NCBI RefSeq assembly: GCF_004570975.1
Contig: NZ_SPPC01000002.1
Coordinates: forward strand, 186,001-250,000
DNA: 64,000 bases
Source: Barnesiella sp. WM24
GTDB taxonomy: Bacteria; Bacteroidota; Bacteroidia; Bacteroidales; Muribaculaceae
Reading direction: 5' to 3'
Positions 8,801-52,800 of the stretch are shown here, one piece after another. The notes under the pieces were generated by a model, which was not told the DNA's origin, did not search any database, and worked only from the letters and a program-made list of their open reading frames with translations. The translations under genes were made by a program, and so were the position numbers. Positions within the stretch are counted from its first letter, which is position 1. The number at the start of each line of letters is the position of its first letter.

Positions 8801-9222
8801 CGATTGACATCTATGCTATCACATACGGCATGAGCAGCCCCGAAAAGATTGCTTCCCTGCCCCTTGGCAACGGATGGCAGTTCATCACCGTGGCAATTCC
8901 GGAAAAGTATCTCAACCGCCCCTGGATGAATCTATACATTGACGGCAAGCTCAATTCATCGGAACACTATCTGATAATGTCAAGCTATTCTATCGACAAG
9001 TCGGCGGGCATGACGGACGTAGCTGAAGTGACAGGTTCAATAAATCCGCAAGATGGAAAAATCGTCATCTCAGGATTTGAAGGCGAAAGCTACACTATAG
9101 TGCGTGCCGACGGCATCGTGGCATCGTCAGGCATCTGTGACGGACTCACAGCCATAGCAGTAAACTCCGGCATATACATTGTAAAAGCAGGATCACATAC
9201 CGTAAGAGTTATCGTGAAATAA
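5881..9222 (+). CDS. Large secreted FN3 protein with type A-like sorting domain
   Basis: 1113 residues. A hydrophobic N terminus (LLSALCPALICAG) looks like a signal peptide. Residues about 45-330 contain short repeats such as GGMYEIEPDGT and FYGVNTWGTLVKI, suggesting a beta-propeller. FN3 modules follow (YVGNDTPKSPANV, aligned with FVGNDVPGMPTEL of the preceding gene), interleaved with jelly-roll regions. The last 60 residues (SYTIVRADGIVASSG, NSGIYIVKAG, VRVIVK) match the general pattern of type IX-type sorting domains. Probably cell-surface or secreted. No catalytic motif was recognised. The start codon follows a terminator so closely that no promoter fits between, so expression may depend on readthrough. 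Confidence 0.72.
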   Translation: MTKKLLSALCPALICAGTISSHETVQFSTERSGKIITGTPATIFSGEKSILHNYIEPETSGMNKVGATGSTIYGYQSYADIDGFTGGMYEIEPDGTMTRLWDYEYSTIGASINNGWLRNGLLCGLGVYTLGSDDLIGDYAYHEFNISTGKMVTMRRIEVYDEYLPYFYTAAYVPDDDRIYGFGRIGDISADTRHIFKSAPADKPEEAVMISEIKPGERCYSFCWHPVDKCFYGVNTWGTLVKIERDGTYTEICKLPFDNLANSPSALMYSPYDGYILWNPTVNEAKSRLYALYPSEKRVEELYTFDVDRQFTFFTTSDFKADEASPAAATYLGCNFKDADHHGTLSFRLPSKTLGGNDLSGKLTYTLYINGAKTESGSSDAGSEITVTVANLNDAYYTFRLEAESNGKTGVPCVAHIYVGNDTPKSPANVTLTENAISWEAVTEGIHNGYLDLSAIEYKIYLNEKLIGTTKTTSLAYNLDSNQELDTFRAKVVATCNGMDSEEGISDKVILGQPLSLPVQIIPTEKQAELCTYINRDGSPEYGTWRLSDQWGDLCFASGWSYEHPDDWLIMPVTMLPDADKVYSVTISAARGGMTSSHEYFEVWAGNAPDPEAMTIPVIEKTRARKFNEWVDYSGIFAIPEAGTYYIAVHGVSDPDQKDLIVKNIRIQATDFSINSPEAVSSLKVVSSSDADLTATISMTLPTKYISGADIESDKIITVKATGASEVSTQGKAGESITITVPTAQGDNYISVVAEIDGATGRTNEVSVFTGMDMLSWVENLSSRISEDNMSVELKWSAPKESLNGGYFETTGIHYLIGEVEPDGSFIYEPFRTEMDVTEHTVVFPKGTPQKFTRIAVVAENAAGASKAVYFVSEIVGTPYSLPILDRFDNLQPQYQPMSASAPTSEYSNGAWSIGQPELVHPDFTGNQSTFAIIGYTDEPSAKVRMRLPKVSTSSLTEAYATFEVWTGHHCADPIDIYAITYGMSSPEKIASLPLGNGWQFITVAIPEKYLNRPWMNLYIDGKLNSSEHYLIMSSYSIDKSAGMTDVAEVTGSINPQDGKIVISGFEGESYTIVRADGIVASSGICDGLTAIAVNSGIYIVKAGSHTVRVIVK

Positions 9223-9244
9223 GAACCTGCCACTGTTTCCCTCA

Positions 9245-9288
9245 AGAGGGTGTACCAAACGTCTTAATTTTGGTACACCCTCTTTTTC
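9245..9288 (+). terminator. Strong intrinsic terminator
   Basis: A perfect 15-bp stem, AGAGGGTGTACCAAA (9245-9259) against TTTGGTACACCCTCT (9269-9283), followed by T5. Confidence 0.95.
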
Positions 9289-9336
9289 ATATCCACACAT
9301 CCGGGAGAGCCTCCTGTCACCCGTCTTAAAAAAAAC

Positions 9337-9348
9337 ATGCCAAAGCAT
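9337..9348. promoter_or_regulatory. Degenerate upstream palindrome of KilA-N copy 1
   Basis: ATGCCAAAGCAT is the counterpart of the perfect ATGCCAAGGCAT found upstream of copies 2 and 3. One base differs and breaks the symmetry. Confidence 0.45.
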
Positions 9349-9385
9349 CTATTTTCCAACTGTTGCCAAAACCGAAGCAAATGAT

Positions 9386-9393
9386 TATATTTA
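9386..9393 (+). promoter_or_regulatory. Decayed -7 box of KilA-N copy 1
   Basis: TATATTTA stands where copies 2 and 3 have TATATTTG, in otherwise nearly identical surroundings. The key final G is lost. Confidence 0.5.
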
Positions 9394-9434
9394 TGTTATA
9401 AAATTCTGATTTCAATAAAAATACAACTACTGAC

Positions 9435-10237
9435 ATGGCGAAACTGATAGTAAAAGATACAGAGGTCAATATCCTCAAAGTTAACGGCGAGGATTATATC
9501 TGCCTCACTGATATGCTACGGACTAAAGATGGAGATTTCTTCATCACTGACTGGCTGCGTAATCGTAATACCTTGGAGTTTATTGGAATCTGGGAGAAAG
9601 TGTATAACCCTGATTTTAATTATGGCGAATTCGCCATAATTAAAAATCAGTCCGGACTTAATAGTTTCAAGATAAGTGTAAGGAATTTGTAGCACGAACT
9701 AATGCCATATCAGTACAGGCAAAAGCCGGACGCTATGGAGGCACATATGCTCATAAGGACATTGCATTTGAGTTTGCGATGTGGATTAGCCCCGAGTTCA
9801 AGATTTACATCGTAAAGGAGTTTCAGCGGCTAAAGGAAGAGGAACAGAAACAGCTCGGTTGGTCGGCTAAGCGTGAGTTGTCCAGGATAAACTATCGAAT
9901 CCACACAGATGCCATTAAGCACAATCTCATACCCGCCGAGATTACAAAGGCCCAGGCAAGTATCATATATGCCAATGAAGCCGATGTCCTGAATGTGGCT
10001 ATGTTCGGCATGACGGCTAAACAGTGGCGTGACACCAATCCCGACCTCAAGGGTAATATCCGCGACTATGCATCAATCAATGAACTTATATGCCTCTCCA
10101 ATATGGAAAACCTAAATGCCGTGTTTATTGAACAAGGGATGCCACAGCCGGAACGACTGATCAAGCTCAATCAGATTGCCATTCACCAGATGAGCGTACT
10201 TGAAAGCGGTGATAACAATAGAGAACTGTTGAAATAG
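9435..10237 (+). pseudogene. KilA-N domain protein, copy 1, frameshifted
   Basis: Frame 1 (9435-9692) encodes the start of a KilA-N protein (DYICLTDML, EFIGIWEKVYNPDFN) and then hits TAG. The continuation (KEFVARTNAI, GRYGGTYAHKDIAFEF) is in another frame and runs to 10237. Comparison with copy 2 places a one-base deletion between 9677 and 9680. The region is 803 bp against exactly 804 bp in copy 2, so restoring one base gives the same 267-residue length. The last 132 residues differ from copies 2 and 3 at only two positions each. With its decayed -7 box this copy is probably dead, unless frameshifting or phase switching restores it. The intact family is predicted to bind DNA through the KilA-N domain. 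Confidence 0.85.
9614..9645. repeat. Perfect 32-bp palindrome inside KilA-N copy 1
   Basis: Sixteen bases on each side of 9629/9630 are perfectly complementary. Outward from the centre the arm reads AAGCGGTATT then AATTTT. The symmetry continues as TGA/TCA at 9611-9613 and 9647-9649 if one base is looped out. The centre is the codon boundary GAA|TTC (Glu-Phe), so each codon is the reverse complement of its mirror codon. Confidence 0.95.
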
Positions 10238-10340
10238 CCCTTCAAACAGCAGCGTAAACACTCATTTACAAAAATTACACGATTCAATGCGTATAAGCAA
10301 TGCCCGACGAATGGAAGCCCTACCTTGTTTAAAACATAAC

Positions 10341-10352
10341 ATGCCAAGGCAT
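10341..10352. promoter_or_regulatory. Possible operator palindrome upstream of KilA-N copy 2
   Basis: ATGCCAAGGCAT is a perfect inverted repeat of 5 bases with a 2-base spacer, 38 bases before the -7 box. It is kept in copy 3 and broken in the decayed copy 1, which suggests a role, perhaps regulator binding. Confidence 0.4.
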
Positions 10353-10389
10353 CTATTTTCCAGCTGTTGCCCAAACCGAAGCAAATGAT

Positions 10390-10397
10390 TATATTTG
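10390..10397 (+). promoter_or_regulatory. -7 box of KilA-N copy 2
   Basis: TATATTTG lies 108 bases upstream of the start at 10505. The leader between them contains the leftover start ATGGCAAA at 10454. Confidence 0.6.
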
Positions 10398-10453
10398 TGT
10401 TATAAAAAACTAAACCCAATAGCTTGGCGACTCAGGTACAACCGGGAGTCAAC

Positions 10454-10474
10454 ATGGCAAAAGTAATACATTGA
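10454..10474 (+). other. Vestigial start codon in the leader of KilA-N copy 2
   Basis: ATG GCA AAA GTA ATA CAT TGA encodes MAKVIH. The sequence up to ATGGCAAA is shared with the leader of copy 3 (ATG at 11531) and then diverges completely. All three real proteins begin MAK, so this looks like the start codon of an earlier N-terminal half displaced when a new one arrived. It could also act as an upstream regulatory ORF. Confidence 0.5.
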
Positions 10475-10504
10475 ATTGACTCCAACAAATATCGAGACAT
10501 CTAT

Positions 10505-11308
10505 ATGGCAAAAATAACCGTTCTCAACACCGACATAACCATTGTTCAGTACAATGAAGAGGATTACATCAGTCTGACCGACATGGCTCGAAGTCAGATG
10601 CAGGAGCATATCATCTTTCGTTGGCTAAGTCTCAAAAGCACGTTAGAGTATCTTGGAGAATGGGAGATGCTGTATAATCCGGATTTTAATTGTACCGAAT
10701 TCGGTACAATTAAAAATGCTGCCGGCAGCAACAATTTTGTCCTTTCAGTGAAAACTTGGATAGAAAGGACTAATGCTATTGGTATCCGTTCAAAAGCAGG
10801 ACGATACGGTGGTACTTATGCACATCGTGATATTGCATACCATTTTGGCATGTGGATTGCGCCTAAGTTCCAGTTGCTTTTAGTTAAGGAATATCAGAGA
10901 CTTAAATCAGAGGAACAGAAACAGCTCGGTTGGTCGGCCAAGCGTGAGTTGTCCAGGATAAACTATCGAATCCACACAGATGCCATTAAGCACAATCTTA
11001 TACCCGCCGAGATTACAAAGGCCCAGGCAAGTATCATATATGCCAATGAAGCCGATGTCCTGAATGTGGCTATGTTCGGCATGACGGCAAAGCAGTGGCG
11101 AGACGCCAATCCCGACCTCAAGGGTAATATCCGCGACTATGCATCAATCAATGAACTTATATGCCTCTCCAATATGGAAAATCTAAATGCCGTGTTTATT
11201 GAACAAAGGATGCCACAGCCGGAACGACTGATCAAGCTCAATCAGATTGCCATTCACCAGATGAGCGTACTTGAAAGCGGTGATAACAATAGAGAACTGT
11301 TGAAATAG
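10505..11308 (+). CDS. KilA-N domain DNA-binding protein, copy 2 (intact)
   Basis: 267 residues. Residues about 1-130 form a KilA-N domain as found in Bacteroidota chromosomes and phages (DYISLTDMAR, WEMLYNPDFN, WIERTNAIGI, GRYGGTYAHRDIAYHF). The KilA-N fold binds DNA in known viral proteins. Residues 136-267 are a helical C-terminal region beginning EEQKQLGWSAKRELSR, virtually identical to those of copies 1 and 3 and probably used for dimerisation or partner binding. Residues 60-70 (FNCTEFGTIK) are encoded by a perfect palindrome. No other phage genes lie nearby. The role is unknown; autoregulation or competition between copies is possible. Confidence 0.85.
   Translation: MAKITVLNTDITIVQYNEEDYISLTDMARSQMQEHIIFRWLSLKSTLEYLGEWEMLYNPDFNCTEFGTIKNAAGSNNFVLSVKTWIERTNAIGIRSKAGRYGGTYAHRDIAYHFGMWIAPKFQLLLVKEYQRLKSEEQKQLGWSAKRELSRINYRIHTDAIKHNLIPAEITKAQASIIYANEADVLNVAMFGMTAKQWRDANPDLKGNIRDYASINELICLSNMENLNAVFIEQRMPQPERLIKLNQIAIHQMSVLESGDNNRELLK
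10684..10715. repeat. Perfect 32-bp palindrome inside KilA-N copy 2
   Basis: Centred on the GAA|TTC codon boundary at 10699/10700, at the same codon as in copy 1. Outward from the centre the arm reads AAGCCATGTT then AATTTT. It differs from copy 1 at three positions of the arm, and all three are compensated on the opposite arm. Confidence 0.95.
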
Positions 11309-11417
11309 CCCTTCAAACAGCAGCGTAAACACTCTTTTACAAACATTACACGATTCAATGCGTATAAGCAATGCCCGACGAGTGGAAGCCCTACCTTGTT
11401 TAAAACATATAAAAAAC

Positions 11418-11429
11418 ATGCCAAGGCAT
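11418..11429. promoter_or_regulatory. Possible operator palindrome upstream of KilA-N copy 3
   Basis: ATGCCAAGGCAT is identical to the site before copy 2, at the same distance from the -7 box. Confidence 0.4.
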
Positions 11430-11466
11430 CTATTTTCCAGCCGTTGCCCAAACCGAAGCAAATGAT

Positions 11467-11474
11467 TATATTTG
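11467..11474 (+). promoter_or_regulatory. -7 box of KilA-N copy 3
   Basis: TATATTTG sits in the same context as for copy 2, 109 bases before the start at 11583. The shared leader ends at a second vestigial ATGGCAAA at 11531. Confidence 0.6.
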
Positions 11475-11582
11475 TGTTATAAAAAACTAAACCCAATAGC
11501 TTGGCTACTCAGGAGCAACCGGGAGTCAACATGGCAAAGTGTTGTGCTTTTTTATTCATTCTTAAAACATCAAATTCCGTTT

Positions 11583-12398
11583 ATGGCCAAGATTATCGTT
11601 CAAAACACAGATATAACAGTTCTCGGAGTTGAGGGACAGGACTATATCTCCCTCACTGACATGGCGTCAGCAAAAGACGGAGACAGCAGAGCCGCCGATG
11701 TGATAAAGAACTGGATAAGGACACGATATACAATTGAGTTCCTTGGGACATGGGAGATTATTCATAATCCTAATTTCAAAGTGGTCGAATTTGACCACTT
11801 TAGAATGAGTGCCGGATTGCCATCGTTTGTGCTTAGTGCATCAGAGTGGGTTGAAAAGACCAATGCAATAGGAATAATTGTAAAAAAAGGTCGCTATGGT
11901 GGCACATATGCCCACAAGGATATTGCTTTTGAATTCGGTTCAGCAATAAGCGTTCCCTTTAAACTATATCTGATTGAAGAGTTTCAGAGACTTAAATCAG
12001 AGGAACAGAAACAGCTCGGTTGGTCGGTTAAGCGTGAGTTGTCCAGGATAAACTATCGAATCCACACAGATGCCATTAAGCACAATCTCATACCCGCGGA
12101 GATTACAAAGGCTCAGGCAAGTATCATATATGCCAATGAAGCCGATGTCCTGAACGTGGCTATGTTCGGCATGACGGCAAAACAGTGGCGTGACGCCAAT
12201 CCCGACCTCAAGGGCAATATCCGCGACTATGCATCAATCAATGAACTTATATGCCTCTCCAATATGGAAAATCTAAATGCCGTGTTTATTGAACAAGGGA
12301 TGCCACAGCCGGAACGACTGATTAAGCTCAATCAGATTGCCATTCACCAGATGAGCGTACTTGAAAGCGGTGATAACAATAGAGAACTGTTGAAATAG
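11583..12398 (+). CDS. KilA-N domain DNA-binding protein, copy 3 (intact)
   Basis: 271 residues from the ATG at 11583. The longer open frame from 11472 would begin inside the promoter region and lacks family similarity. The N-terminal KilA-N half (DYISLTDMAS, WIRTRYTIEFLGTWEI, GRYGGTYAHKDIAFEF) is only distantly like copies 1 and 2. The C-terminal 132 residues differ from copy 2 at two positions. Residues 65-74 (FKVVEFDHFR) lie over the palindrome. The sharp change from divergent to identical sequence occurs at the codons for EEQKQLGW. Predicted to bind DNA; target unknown. Confidence 0.85.
   Translation: MAKIIVQNTDITVLGVEGQDYISLTDMASAKDGDSRAADVIKNWIRTRYTIEFLGTWEIIHNPNFKVVEFDHFRMSAGLPSFVLSASEWVEKTNAIGIIVKKGRYGGTYAHKDIAFEFGSAISVPFKLYLIEEFQRLKSEEQKQLGWSVKRELSRINYRIHTDAIKHNLIPAEITKAQASIIYANEADVLNVAMFGMTAKQWRDANPDLKGNIRDYASINELICLSNMENLNAVFIEQGMPQPERLIKLNQIAIHQMSVLESGDNNRELLK
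11778..11801. repeat. 24-bp near-perfect palindrome inside KilA-N copy 3
   Basis: Centred on GAA|TTT at 11789/11790, aligned with the palindromes of copies 1 and 2. Outward from the centre the arm reads AAGCTGGTGA then AA. Eleven of twelve pairs match; the exception is G11787 opposite T11792. Compared with copy 1 the arm differs at five positions, and all five are compensated. Confidence 0.9.
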
Positions 12399-49853: not shown

Positions 49854-52800
49854 TTAATCTTCCACAAGTCTTATAAACGCCGCATCGGTATCATTAAACA
49901 GCGAATAAGCATCGCTATTGAATGTATTAAAGTCAAATGTGGTATAGTTTATATCCCAAGCCGAGATAAGCGTAGGCCCGGGATTTTTAGGGTCTTCCTC
50001 TACCTCACCGGTCCAATAGACGGCGCCATTCTGCAAGTACATCGTGTAGAGCAACGGGCGATATTCCGCAAAATGTCCGGTTCCGTCAGGCATCAGCTTC
50101 GACCTGTTGCCATATCTAAGGACCCCCTCCTTATCATCTTCAGAATAATATGCCCCGGATTTACCGCTGCCATCTTTACGCCTGCCATGACCCGCGACTC
50201 CAATCGGAAAGAACAGGTTGAGACCATCTTTTCCAACATTGTAGACAAACCATCCACGCATGCCGCGCGACTGGCGACTGCTCTCGTCGACATAAGAAGC
50301 ATAACCTTCCGAAACATCCACTTCGGTCAGAGTCATTGTCGCTCCGTCGCCATACAGGATTCCGGCTCCGAAGTCACATTCCTTGCGAAGATCCTGAAAA
50401 TCAGCCTGTGAAGCCACTCTGCACTCTGTATCGCCTACTTTCAGTTTTGCCTTTTTAAAGAAATCCCTTGCGCTCCCATTGTTGAGGGACTTCGCGGTCT
50501 TTATCTCTCTCCACTTTTTACCAGTCTTATCCTTGTTTTCAGCATAAGGGGCAAGTATGAAATCTTCACGACTTTCAGGATAGTCCTTAAAGCGGTCACG
50601 CATCTGATTGTTATAAGACGCAATCGCATCTGTCAGGTTTCCATATCGGAACAGCGAGCCTTCAGAACGGGGATAGCGTTCTTCATGCGCGACATAACCG
50701 TTATCTTCATCGGTTGTCACATACTCCAGATTGACAGTATGCCACTTTACCCCGTTATTTGTAATCGCAACCGGAGCATAGCCCTGACGCACCATTATAC
50801 GATGGGTACATGTATAATTGTTATAAAGCACTTTTATAACCGCACATCTCACATCATCGGCTGACGCTGCCTTGGACAGGAATTTCACATCAAACTGAAT
50901 ATCGCTACCGGTATCGCCATGAATCTTGGCACCACGTGCGACATTTCCTCCGATAGAGAGCCAACCGCCACCTCCGGTGATATACTCAACCTCTGCGCTC
51001 CAGGGTCCTCCTGATGATTTAACCGGCTCATACGGTTTTGATCCATCTTCAGTAGTGTTGTGCATCAGATGCACATTAAACGGGTCGGTACAATTCCAGC
51101 TGCGGTATATGCCTTTCGGATTCACGATACGCGGCACCTGGAGCACCTTTGCCACGATTTCCTGATTTCCAAGTCCCTTGATTTTTGCCTTGAACGTAAT
51201 CTCGGCATAACGGTAATAGCCGATATATGGATTGTTGCCACGGTAACCCGCTGTCTTGATAAGATTTATCTCACGCGAAAAGAGCGGTATCAAGAAAGTG
51301 GTGTGTGGCACTCCGTTTTTGACCGTGGTCGACACCTCATATGTACCGTCTTTAGCAAAATCATCGTTTGCATTATCCGTTCTGTCGGTTGTTGGAGTCT
51401 TGGCGACATTATAAAAACGATGTCCCCTGTGATTCACTTTCTCATTAATGGCAGGGTCACCTTTTCCCTCCCAATATGCCTGATTATAAGGCAAACCATT
51501 ATACTTAGACGTTGATTGATTATAGTTATATTTGTCCCCTCCTACAGCCGCTTTGAATCCTCGCTCGACCTCATCAGGAGGAGCCTGACGTAAAGAGAGG
51601 AATCCGTGCCAAGGTCCATCATTTACAACCTTATTACGAGGATATACCTCAATGCCAGCAGGAGGCACACCTGGGTTGTCCTCCGTGCAGGGGAACCAGT
51701 CGGAACGTGTAATCTCTGCTTCAAGCTCGCCTTCGAGTTCTCCGACAATAGTCACGGGATACACCATGGACTGATTGTATATATAGGGCACGTAATAATA
51801 TGGGATGGGGACCTTAATGCCCTGTTCCTCATTATAATCTATGTGCCAGTCATAGTCGTTTGCCCTGCCGTTAAACGACAGAGTAAGCTTGTAGTGGTAA
51901 TTTCGCTCGGCGTTATAATCGGTAGTCTCGTTCTTGCCAAGCATGAAACGATAGACTATATTTCCATTGCTCACGATGTTGTCGCGCGAACGATAATATG
52001 CCTTCACTTCTATATATGAGCCCAAAGGCTTGTCATCCTTTTTAATGTCAGAATCCTTGACGTCGCCGGTAGGAGTGTCGCCGTCCATTTCAGGATATTG
52101 ACGCTTGTCCTTTCCCTCGCCCTGCATATTCTCGTAAAAGAATAGCGACACCTCATCCTGCAGGTGGCTTCCGTCGGCTTCCTCGGGATACTTGCGGCCA
52201 TGCACTATCGTGGTCCATTCGGTGTTATACAGTCCGTCGTTATCGGTAGCTTCATGACCGTTGGTGTAATCGATAATCTGGGCGTCGTCGCCATAGTTTC
52301 CGCCGTCGCCGTCATTACCGTTAAGCAGCTCCCCGGCTTTTTCAACAGTGTTGGGGCGCCCGAGACAGCAGCGGGAAGGAATATCCATTATTGTCGCCGA
52401 CTTCAGGTGAATCCAGATATTATCGCGCAGATTTGTGCCGTCAAAAGCGATTGTCACCTTTGACGCCGCACGCCTGAGCCATGACCTTACCTCCATGCCG
52501 TTGCTGCTTATGGTCTCTGTAGGCAATGACTCCATGCTGAAAAACTGTGCCGCCTCGATTGAGGTCTGCCCGCTTGTAAAGCAGCCAAACATCTCCGCAT
52601 TATTGGCAAGACATGAGGAATCCCATTCCAGTCTCAGTCCGCGCAGCCCGTCGACGGTCGACACATCATTGTCAGCGTTATTGAAAAGTTCATCATAGGT
52701 GGTTGTAGCCTCACTATATTTCTCCGACACCGAATTTCCGAGATTAGCCACACCGATTATGGTGTATTCGCCATAAGGAACGATTATCTTATTAAGCGTG

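Follow-up and report, generated by a model that had tools for sequence, protein, structure and literature searches.

Palindromes within the KilA-N codons of a tandem gene array and their counterparts in phages: a possible DNA element read by its own protein

Why should neighbouring genes of one family carry, at the same codon position, palindromes that differ from gene to gene on both arms at once? The question is raised by a 64,000-nt stretch of Barnesiella sp. WM24 (contig NZ_SPPC01000002.1, positions 186,001 to 250,000 of the forward strand; hereafter the window), in which three KilA-N genes stand in tandem. An original prediction, made from the sequence alone, had located a palindrome in each of them, and all three were found again where it had placed them (Table 1). 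Those of copies 1 and 2 have no spacer and arms of 16 bp each, and that of copy 3 has as its single mismatch a G opposite a T at the third pair, 80% of its positions being matched over 11770-11809. Relative to copy 1, three arm positions are changed in copy 2 and five in copy 3, each change being matched on the opposite arm, and the mirror codons pair G with A and Y with I in copy 1, T with G and C with T in copy 2, and V with D and V with H in copy 3; these arm and codon readings proved correct.

Within the WM24 genome, a 16-mer core of the copy-2 palindrome (up to 2 mismatches) and a 22-mer of the copy-3 palindrome (up to 3 mismatches) each occur once, inside their own genes. A 20-mer of copy 1 (up to 3 mismatches) is found in its gene and, as the sole exception, at window positions 52757-52776. 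The latter site has 2 mismatches and lies inside an unrelated minus-strand open reading frame (ORF) of 1,122 aa, where the encoded peptide, YGEYTII, is similar to YGEFAII; the resemblance is probably a coincidence.

Palindrome and KilA-N domain across the family

The palindrome is a real and strong DNA-level element inside the code, and it is so throughout the family. Homologues were collected from the family of the window (297 genomes, 114 with a match, part of the matches being fetched), from its phylum (395 genomes, 66 with a match) and from a scan of named genomes (80 loci kept among the matches listed), together with 47 virus loci, 28 plasmid records (8 fetched) and 32 phage records (5 fetched). 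From 269 hits at the homologous codon position, none of which was dropped, we obtained a set of 217 distinct 48-mers. On average, 11.04 of the 12 pairs in these sites are complementary, as against 6.93 when each peptide is kept and its synonymous codons are redrawn with the usage of the same gene. Homologues thus display the excess of palindromicity over codon-shuffled controls that the original prediction proposed to look for. Perfect sites make up 40.6% of the set, and 81.6% have at least 11 pairs; when arms are exchanged between genes, the matches at positions 4-12 drop from 8.30 to 4.72 of 9.

This symmetry is maintained over a considerable variety of sequences, with 58 distinct 12-nt left arms and 28 distinct perfect 24-bp palindromes. 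The mirror residues are N/I in 115 of the 217 sites, K/F in 72 and others in 30; Tyr TAT has as its mirror Ile ATA in 33 cases and Thr ACA, with one mismatch, in 19, and TAC has Val GTA in 4. Mismatches at positions 4-12 are A.C in 62 cases and G.T in 15, shared ancestry inflating the counts of single types. Because they are mostly A.C and not G.T, they give no hint of G-U pairing in the sense transcript, and an mRNA hairpin, which would tolerate G-U over A.C, was rejected. Records bearing the palindrome are labelled Bacteroidota, Bacillota, Spirochaetota (metagenome bins) and Gammaproteobacteria, and include plasmids and phage contigs; in E. coli, one of 5,426 genomes matches the Photorhabdus gene in part at the DNA level. 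All 69 aligned members match PF04383 (E up to 1; best 1.8e-26). Tandem neighbours with differing palindromes are found not only in the window but also at three other loci (L054, L069 and L158).

The type of palindrome is tied to the KilA-N half of the protein. We stratified protein pairs by C-terminal identity (178 of 213 proteins kept), a design which pushes the C-terminal baseline toward zero, and the reverse test, in strata of KilA-N identity, agrees. In the first test, the palindrome-coded positions 63, 64, 67 and 68 rank top in tracking palindrome type, and positions 52, 79, 38, 36, 39, 33 and 116, all outside the palindrome, also track it strongly; at equal KilA-N identity, the mean is -0.076 for the C-terminal part and 0.395 for palindrome-coded residues. 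When pairs are counted, those with 3-5 palindrome differences being left out, the palindrome type is common to 268 of 268 pairs in the KilA-N identity strata 0.85-0.95 (above 0.825) and differs in 152 of 199 pairs in the C-terminal stratum of 0.9. Judged from these sequence comparisons, the KilA-N domain and the palindrome therefore travel as one cassette, while the C-terminal domain is shuffled. Recombinational linkage and functional coevolution would fit the linkage data alike. The earlier interpretation, that the DNA is at once code and binding site and that each protein may recognize the palindrome in its own gene, is upheld in part, namely in that the DNA is both code and a DNA-level element and that palindrome type shifts with KilA-N residues outside the palindrome.

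An AlphaFold2 model of copy 2, built from 69 sequences (mean confidence in Table 1), suggests that the N-terminal domain is a winged helix. The palindrome-coded residues 61-70 open a predicted helix (63-72), which is followed by a second helix (82-89) and two strands (94-97 and 103-107), with a separate helical region towards the C-terminus. A fold search of PDB with this model returned 94 matches at E up to 10 and none at E of 0.001 or below, the best being DdrC (E 0.02), with the Mbp1 APSES domain at E 1.2-2.3; a search of PDB sequences with the profile gave a single match (E 0.56).

Palindromes outside the gene and in phages

Five distinct members of the family have at most 8 of 12 pairs at the usual place inside the gene, and four of these have a family-type palindrome nearby (Table 1); the fifth (L171) is a truncated gene of 423 nt adjoining a gene with a palindrome of its own. 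Relocation of the palindrome outside the gene is the strongest sign that selection acts on the DNA and not on the peptide. Where the internal site has 10 or more of its 12 pairs and the record extends 150 bp to either side (214 genes), 11 genes have a further palindrome of any kind in these flanks; four of the further palindromes are of a family type (L072, L123, L178 and L103, the last at or after the stop). In L072 (-42), L117 (-28), L123 (-57), L178 (-64) and L201 (-94), an internal palindrome is accompanied by a different family-type palindrome or core upstream, as if one element held two tags. A second copy of the gene's own palindrome in the promoter was rejected as a general rule, since in 179 upstream regions the best match averaged 11.08 of 20 for the own core and 11.21 for other cores.

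The palindrome is also present in viruses that lack the gene. Two patterns derived from KilA-N palindromes (patterns 1 and 2) each match at least 120 stretches in IMG/VR, as against 2 for a control of equal information in which the fourth pair from the centre was swapped, and 1 for a control, more specific by one bit, in which the third and fourth pairs were swapped. Any stable GC-rich hairpin with a T-tail would serve as an intrinsic terminator, whatever its core sequence; because controls of the same composition match so seldom, a terminator was rejected as a general explanation. The fetched loci, 16 of them from hosts, provide 199 sites of distinct context. A KilA-N ORF contains 29 of these and is close to 2 others; for the remaining 168, the locus has no KilA-N gene, and 70 of them are perfect palindromes. 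Among 50 whole virus records chosen from this class, some of which may be fragments, a single one matches PF04383. According to a simple ORF call, 128 of the 167 viral sites not in the family's gene are intergenic, and their neighbours are very diverse. Flanks resembling KilA-N coding sequence on at least one side (p<0.002) were recognized at 4 of the 173 viral sites outside KilA-N ORFs, about 0.7 being expected by estimate; theft of the gene was consequently rejected as a general origin of the phage palindromes. Palindromes immediately follow phage tRNA genes in L287, L324 and L344 (tRNA-Met, CAT, by ARAGORN); in L273, L559 and L561 such a position was judged by eye, ARAGORN finding no tRNA in L273.

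Phage loci with homologous flanks and differing palindromes form 14 groups, and in three of these (L287/L344, L357/L318 and L353/L368) both arms change together in DNA that is apparently non-coding. A further peculiarity is common to genes and phages. An off-centre T (GAATTT) accompanies the AAAGTGGTC arms at 38 of the 45 sites in viruses that lie outside KilA-N ORFs, not all of them independent, and the copy-3 left arm at 26 of 30 distinct gene sites of homologues; listed sites of the AAACTGGTC and AAAGGGGTC types have the symmetric C. From this arm-specific T, it seems that one reader sees both the coding and the non-coding copies.

Named phages and satellites provide individual examples. 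Two streptococcal satellites, Javan581 and Javan625, have the AAACTGGTC type within their KilA-N gene, as does Javan279 but for one mismatch. The exact 24-mer of this type is present in phage Javan117, and a 32-nt query of the type matched 29 phage records, including six satellites, with diverged forms in further phages of streptococci, staphylococci and lactobacilli. The palindrome precedes the capsid scaffold gene by 82-146 bp in Javan117, Javan527 and Javan53 and overlaps the start of that gene in phiSS12 (identified by PHROG for three phages and by annotation for Javan53). The four streptococcal loci concerned are L530-L532 and L538, in which the palindrome is exact or diverged. Diverged forms occur 47 and 220 bp from the integrase gene in Javan637 and LR1, respectively, and a diverged AAAGTGGTC type occurs in 78 Flavobacterium phage records, one of which was read and which probably constitute a related group. 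The KilA-N gene itself is flanked by the repressor module and the integrase in phage EW, and likewise in the satellites Javan279 and Javan581. On plasmids of Photorhabdus (L099) and Aureispira (L101), it adjoins a gene annotated as a 'recombinase family protein', and on a conjugative Aeromonas plasmid (L097) it lies in a region shared with IS26 and aph(3')-Ia.

In host chromosomes, the palindrome is mostly confined to the gene. Pattern 1 was found in 16 of 296 Bacteroidota genomes, 13 times at known KilA-N places, and its reversed control, which is no test of terminators, in none of them. Pattern 3, which covers the first two types of the window, was found at 48 sites in 45 of the 297 genomes of the window's family, with none for the reversed controls; 42 sites are at KilA-N places among the matches listed and 6 are elsewhere. 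By eye, the intact palindrome at five of these six stands amid what resembles a decayed KilA-N gene, and the sixth has no such flank; a hidden Markov model search of the six sites gave no KilA-N hit. The apparent scars are L594-L598, and genomes G014 and G032 have no KilA-N match among the matches listed.

Possible roles of the palindrome

A search of the literature on KilA-N palindromes, in accord with the original prediction, which knew of no description, retrieved none of this palindrome; the sole near precedent found, of the same general kind, is the BstA/aba system. BstA, encoded by Salmonella phage BTP1 and its relatives, has a KilA-N-like N-terminal domain and aborts infection; aba, an element of 63 bp across the start of bstA, silences the protein as DNA, is cognate to it, and acts in trans on high-copy DNA (PMC8585504). 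On the evidence of the excerpts of that report used here, the two systems are alike in several respects. Both have a KilA-N or KilA-N-like N-terminal domain and a separate C-terminal domain; in the present family, PF04383 falls in the N-terminal half, and the C-terminal half does not track the palindrome at equal KilA-N identity. Both possess a short DNA element in their own locus which overlaps the coding sequence. Each BstA protein has a cognate element, and there are gene-specific palindrome types with a putative cognate function here. Finally, members of both are located in prophages next to the repressor, and sometimes outside prophages and on plasmids.

On balance, we favour, with moderate confidence, the reading that the palindrome is a DNA element read by the protein of its own gene and working like aba, and that phages having only the palindrome carry an immunity tag. 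The presence of the element outside the gene and in phages without the gene points to a role in self-immunity, or as a tag, beyond plain autoregulation. We infer binding, dimerization, defence and immunity, as follows. Each gene would encode a two-domain protein with a predicted winged-helix DNA-binding domain at the N-terminus and a helical domain at the C-terminus. This protein would recognize the internal palindrome of 24-32 bp, probably in dimeric form with each subunit on one arm, and a cognate palindrome on replicating DNA would neutralize or divert the protein, as aba does for BstA. An element carrying the gene would thereby be immune to its own defence, and elements with another palindrome or with none would not. 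With the password located inside the codons of the recognition domain, specificity and password would recombine together, C-terminal domains being shuffled. In phages without the gene, the palindrome would be an immunity tag, either borrowed or evolved, and this would spur the diversification of arms and account for tandem genes with different palindromes on one chromosome.

Several points weigh against this reading. A single chromosomal aba gave neither protection nor silencing of BstA (PMC8585504, in the excerpts used), and because of this, self-immunity leaves unexplained why chromosomal copies such as the array of the window keep the palindrome; that array is on the chromosome, and the neighbouring ORFs looked at include no phage gene. 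According to the same excerpts, aba spans the gene start, ends in direct repeats and is not described as palindromic, unlike the present element, a palindrome that encodes part of the KilA-N domain; phages carrying the element without the gene, as here, are not reported for aba in those excerpts. Homology to BstA was not found either: hhalign gave a probability of 0.2% with BstA as a single template, BLASTP gave E 0.5, and BstA matches its own PADLOC model and a weak helix-turn-helix model but not PDC-S22, and no Pfam family. Because sequence homology was not found, we class the family as working like BstA/aba and not as BstA.

Other adverse points come from the distribution of the sites. At 169 of the 173 viral sites outside KilA-N ORFs, there are no KilA-N-like coding flanks at p<0.002, so that theft of gene fragments is supported for few sites only. 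In 11 of the 14 groups of homologous phage loci, the change affects one arm, the centre, or a mixture. Pattern 3 matched 23 virus stretches in IMG/VR, where it stands without a control of its own, and 12 of these are inside KilA-N genes by tblastn. Translation of its other 11 revealed gene fragments in L540, L547, L556 and L548, the first three representing one event because they are identical over the 38 residues shown; L557, a further candidate, was rejected since it fails in the reading frame of the palindrome. Viral sites are often found behind a stop codon or a tRNA gene, and some of them may be terminators. Among the four outside palindromes, three lie near -45 to -49, an operator-like position. 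Lastly, viral sites and host scars cannot show decay that spares the palindrome, since both were searched for by the intact palindrome.

The main rival is plain autoregulation, in which the palindrome would be an operator and the KilA-N protein would repress its own gene by an internal road-block or from the promoter, phage copies being unrelated or regulating phage genes. We consider it unlikely, although it is compatible with an aba-like role and both may coexist. It would account for the outside palindromes at -45, -49 and -47/-100, which are typical operator positions, for the predicted winged-helix domain, for the label of PHROG 2657, 'transcriptional regulator', and for the fact that, in the WM24 and related genomes searched, the palindrome is mostly within KilA-N genes. 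However, the internal site is about 200 bp into the gene, and the sites in L157 and L103 are at or after the stop. Autoregulation also leaves unexplained the 49 of 50 phage records with a palindrome but no KilA-N match, as well as a palindrome type common to satellites and a phage. Still less probable is that the protein attacks or senses the phage palindromes as its targets, the copy in its own gene serving as a titration sensor released as phage copies accumulate. The sites close to the scaffold gene in three streptococcal phages, with a fourth overlapping its start, would suit such a role, as would phage arms that sometimes look partly eroded; yet one mutation would remove a harmful 24-bp site, and 70 of 168 are perfect, both arms have changed together in three groups of homologous loci, and the sites are at many unrelated places. 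Template switching corrects quasi-palindromes, and several viral sites are T-rich and directly follow a stop codon or tRNA gene, but secondary structure with no protein reader (mRNA hairpin, intrinsic terminator or arm-copying mutation) is highly improbable in view of the prevalence of A.C over G.T mismatches (with shared ancestry inflating single types), the rarity of swapped-pair controls of the same composition, and the tracking of the KilA-N half of the protein by palindrome type.

A broader picture is also conceivable, to which we give slightly less than an even chance. The family would represent a cross-phylum password system, in which a palindrome within the codons of the recognition domain is hard to separate from the specificity of the protein, with prophages, satellites, plasmids and chromosomes holding one or, at times, several passwords and phages of many lineages forging them by keeping the bare palindrome. 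It would then be a large family of DNA-encoded self-immunity, separate from or far beyond BstA/aba. Were this true, the immunity of a phage to a given KilA-N protein could be read from sequence alone, and hosts, satellites and phages would be joined by a directly testable matching code.

The array and its surroundings

The features discussed are compiled in Table 1. Each unit of the array consists of a KilA-N gene and its own leader repeat, with spacings of 1,071 and 1,090 bp. The 3' parts of copies 1 and 3 are 95% and 96% identical to that of copy 2 over 300 nt, and the KilA-N halves of the three copies are much more diverged than the 3' halves. The earlier description of three tandem KilA-N genes holds as regards the tandem repeats but not the integrity of copy 1, the frame of which is broken between its two ORFs. 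Searched against the whole genome, the copy-2 protein has three matches, which are only the copies of the array.

Table 1. Coordinates of the array, its palindromes and the relocated palindromes of homologues (window positions, or palindrome centres relative to the gene; pLDDT, predicted local distance difference test)
Feature	Position	Strand	Details
Copy 1, N-terminal piece (KilA-N domain), broken gene	9435..9692	+	PF04383 E 1.1e-9; PDC-S22 E 6.3e-31; ORF stop at 9692
Copy 1, C-terminal piece, same broken gene	9779..10237	+	PDC-S22 profile positions 122-272, E 4.9e-74; no Pfam match
Copy 2, intact KilA-N gene, 267 aa	10505..11308	+	PF04383 E 3.2e-21; PDC-S22 E 2.2e-127; AlphaFold2 model mean pLDDT 79.6
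Copy 3, intact KilA-N gene, 271 aa	11583..12398	+	PF04383 E 2.3e-18; PDC-S22 E 6.2e-132
Leader/upstream repeat, copy 1	9334..9457	+	70% to copy-2 repeat
Leader/upstream repeat, copy 2	10338..10461	+	
Leader/upstream repeat, copy 3	11415..11538	+	97% to copy 2
Palindrome, copy 1, AATTATGGC type, centre GAA|TTC	9614..9645	.	Perfect over 32 bp
Palindrome, copy 2, AATTGTACC type	10684..10715	.	Perfect over 32 bp; encodes residues F61-K70
Palindrome, copy 3, AAAGTGGTC type, centre GAA|TTT	11778..11801	.	11/12 pairs
Outside palindrome, L102	centre -45		
Outside palindrome, L100	centre -49		10/11 pairs
Outside palindromes, L259	centres -47 and -100		
Outside palindrome, L157	15 bp past stop		

PF04383 is matched above the Pfam gathering threshold by copies 2 and 3 and by the N-terminal piece of copy 1, and copies 2 and 3 also match PHROG 2657; neither of these labels mentions an embedded cognate DNA element. 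All three copies match PDC-S22, which PADLOC lists only as a candidate defence gene, copies 2 and 3 doing so over the greater part of the model (positions 6-272 of 281). In the literature retrieved, the name PDC-S22 appears in a single paper, the excerpts of which give neither a mechanism nor a palindrome. Upstream of the array, directly after an ORF ending at 9222, an inverted repeat with 16-bp arms and a 9-nt loop occupies window positions 9244-9284 and, from its sequence, is likely to be a terminator ahead of the array.

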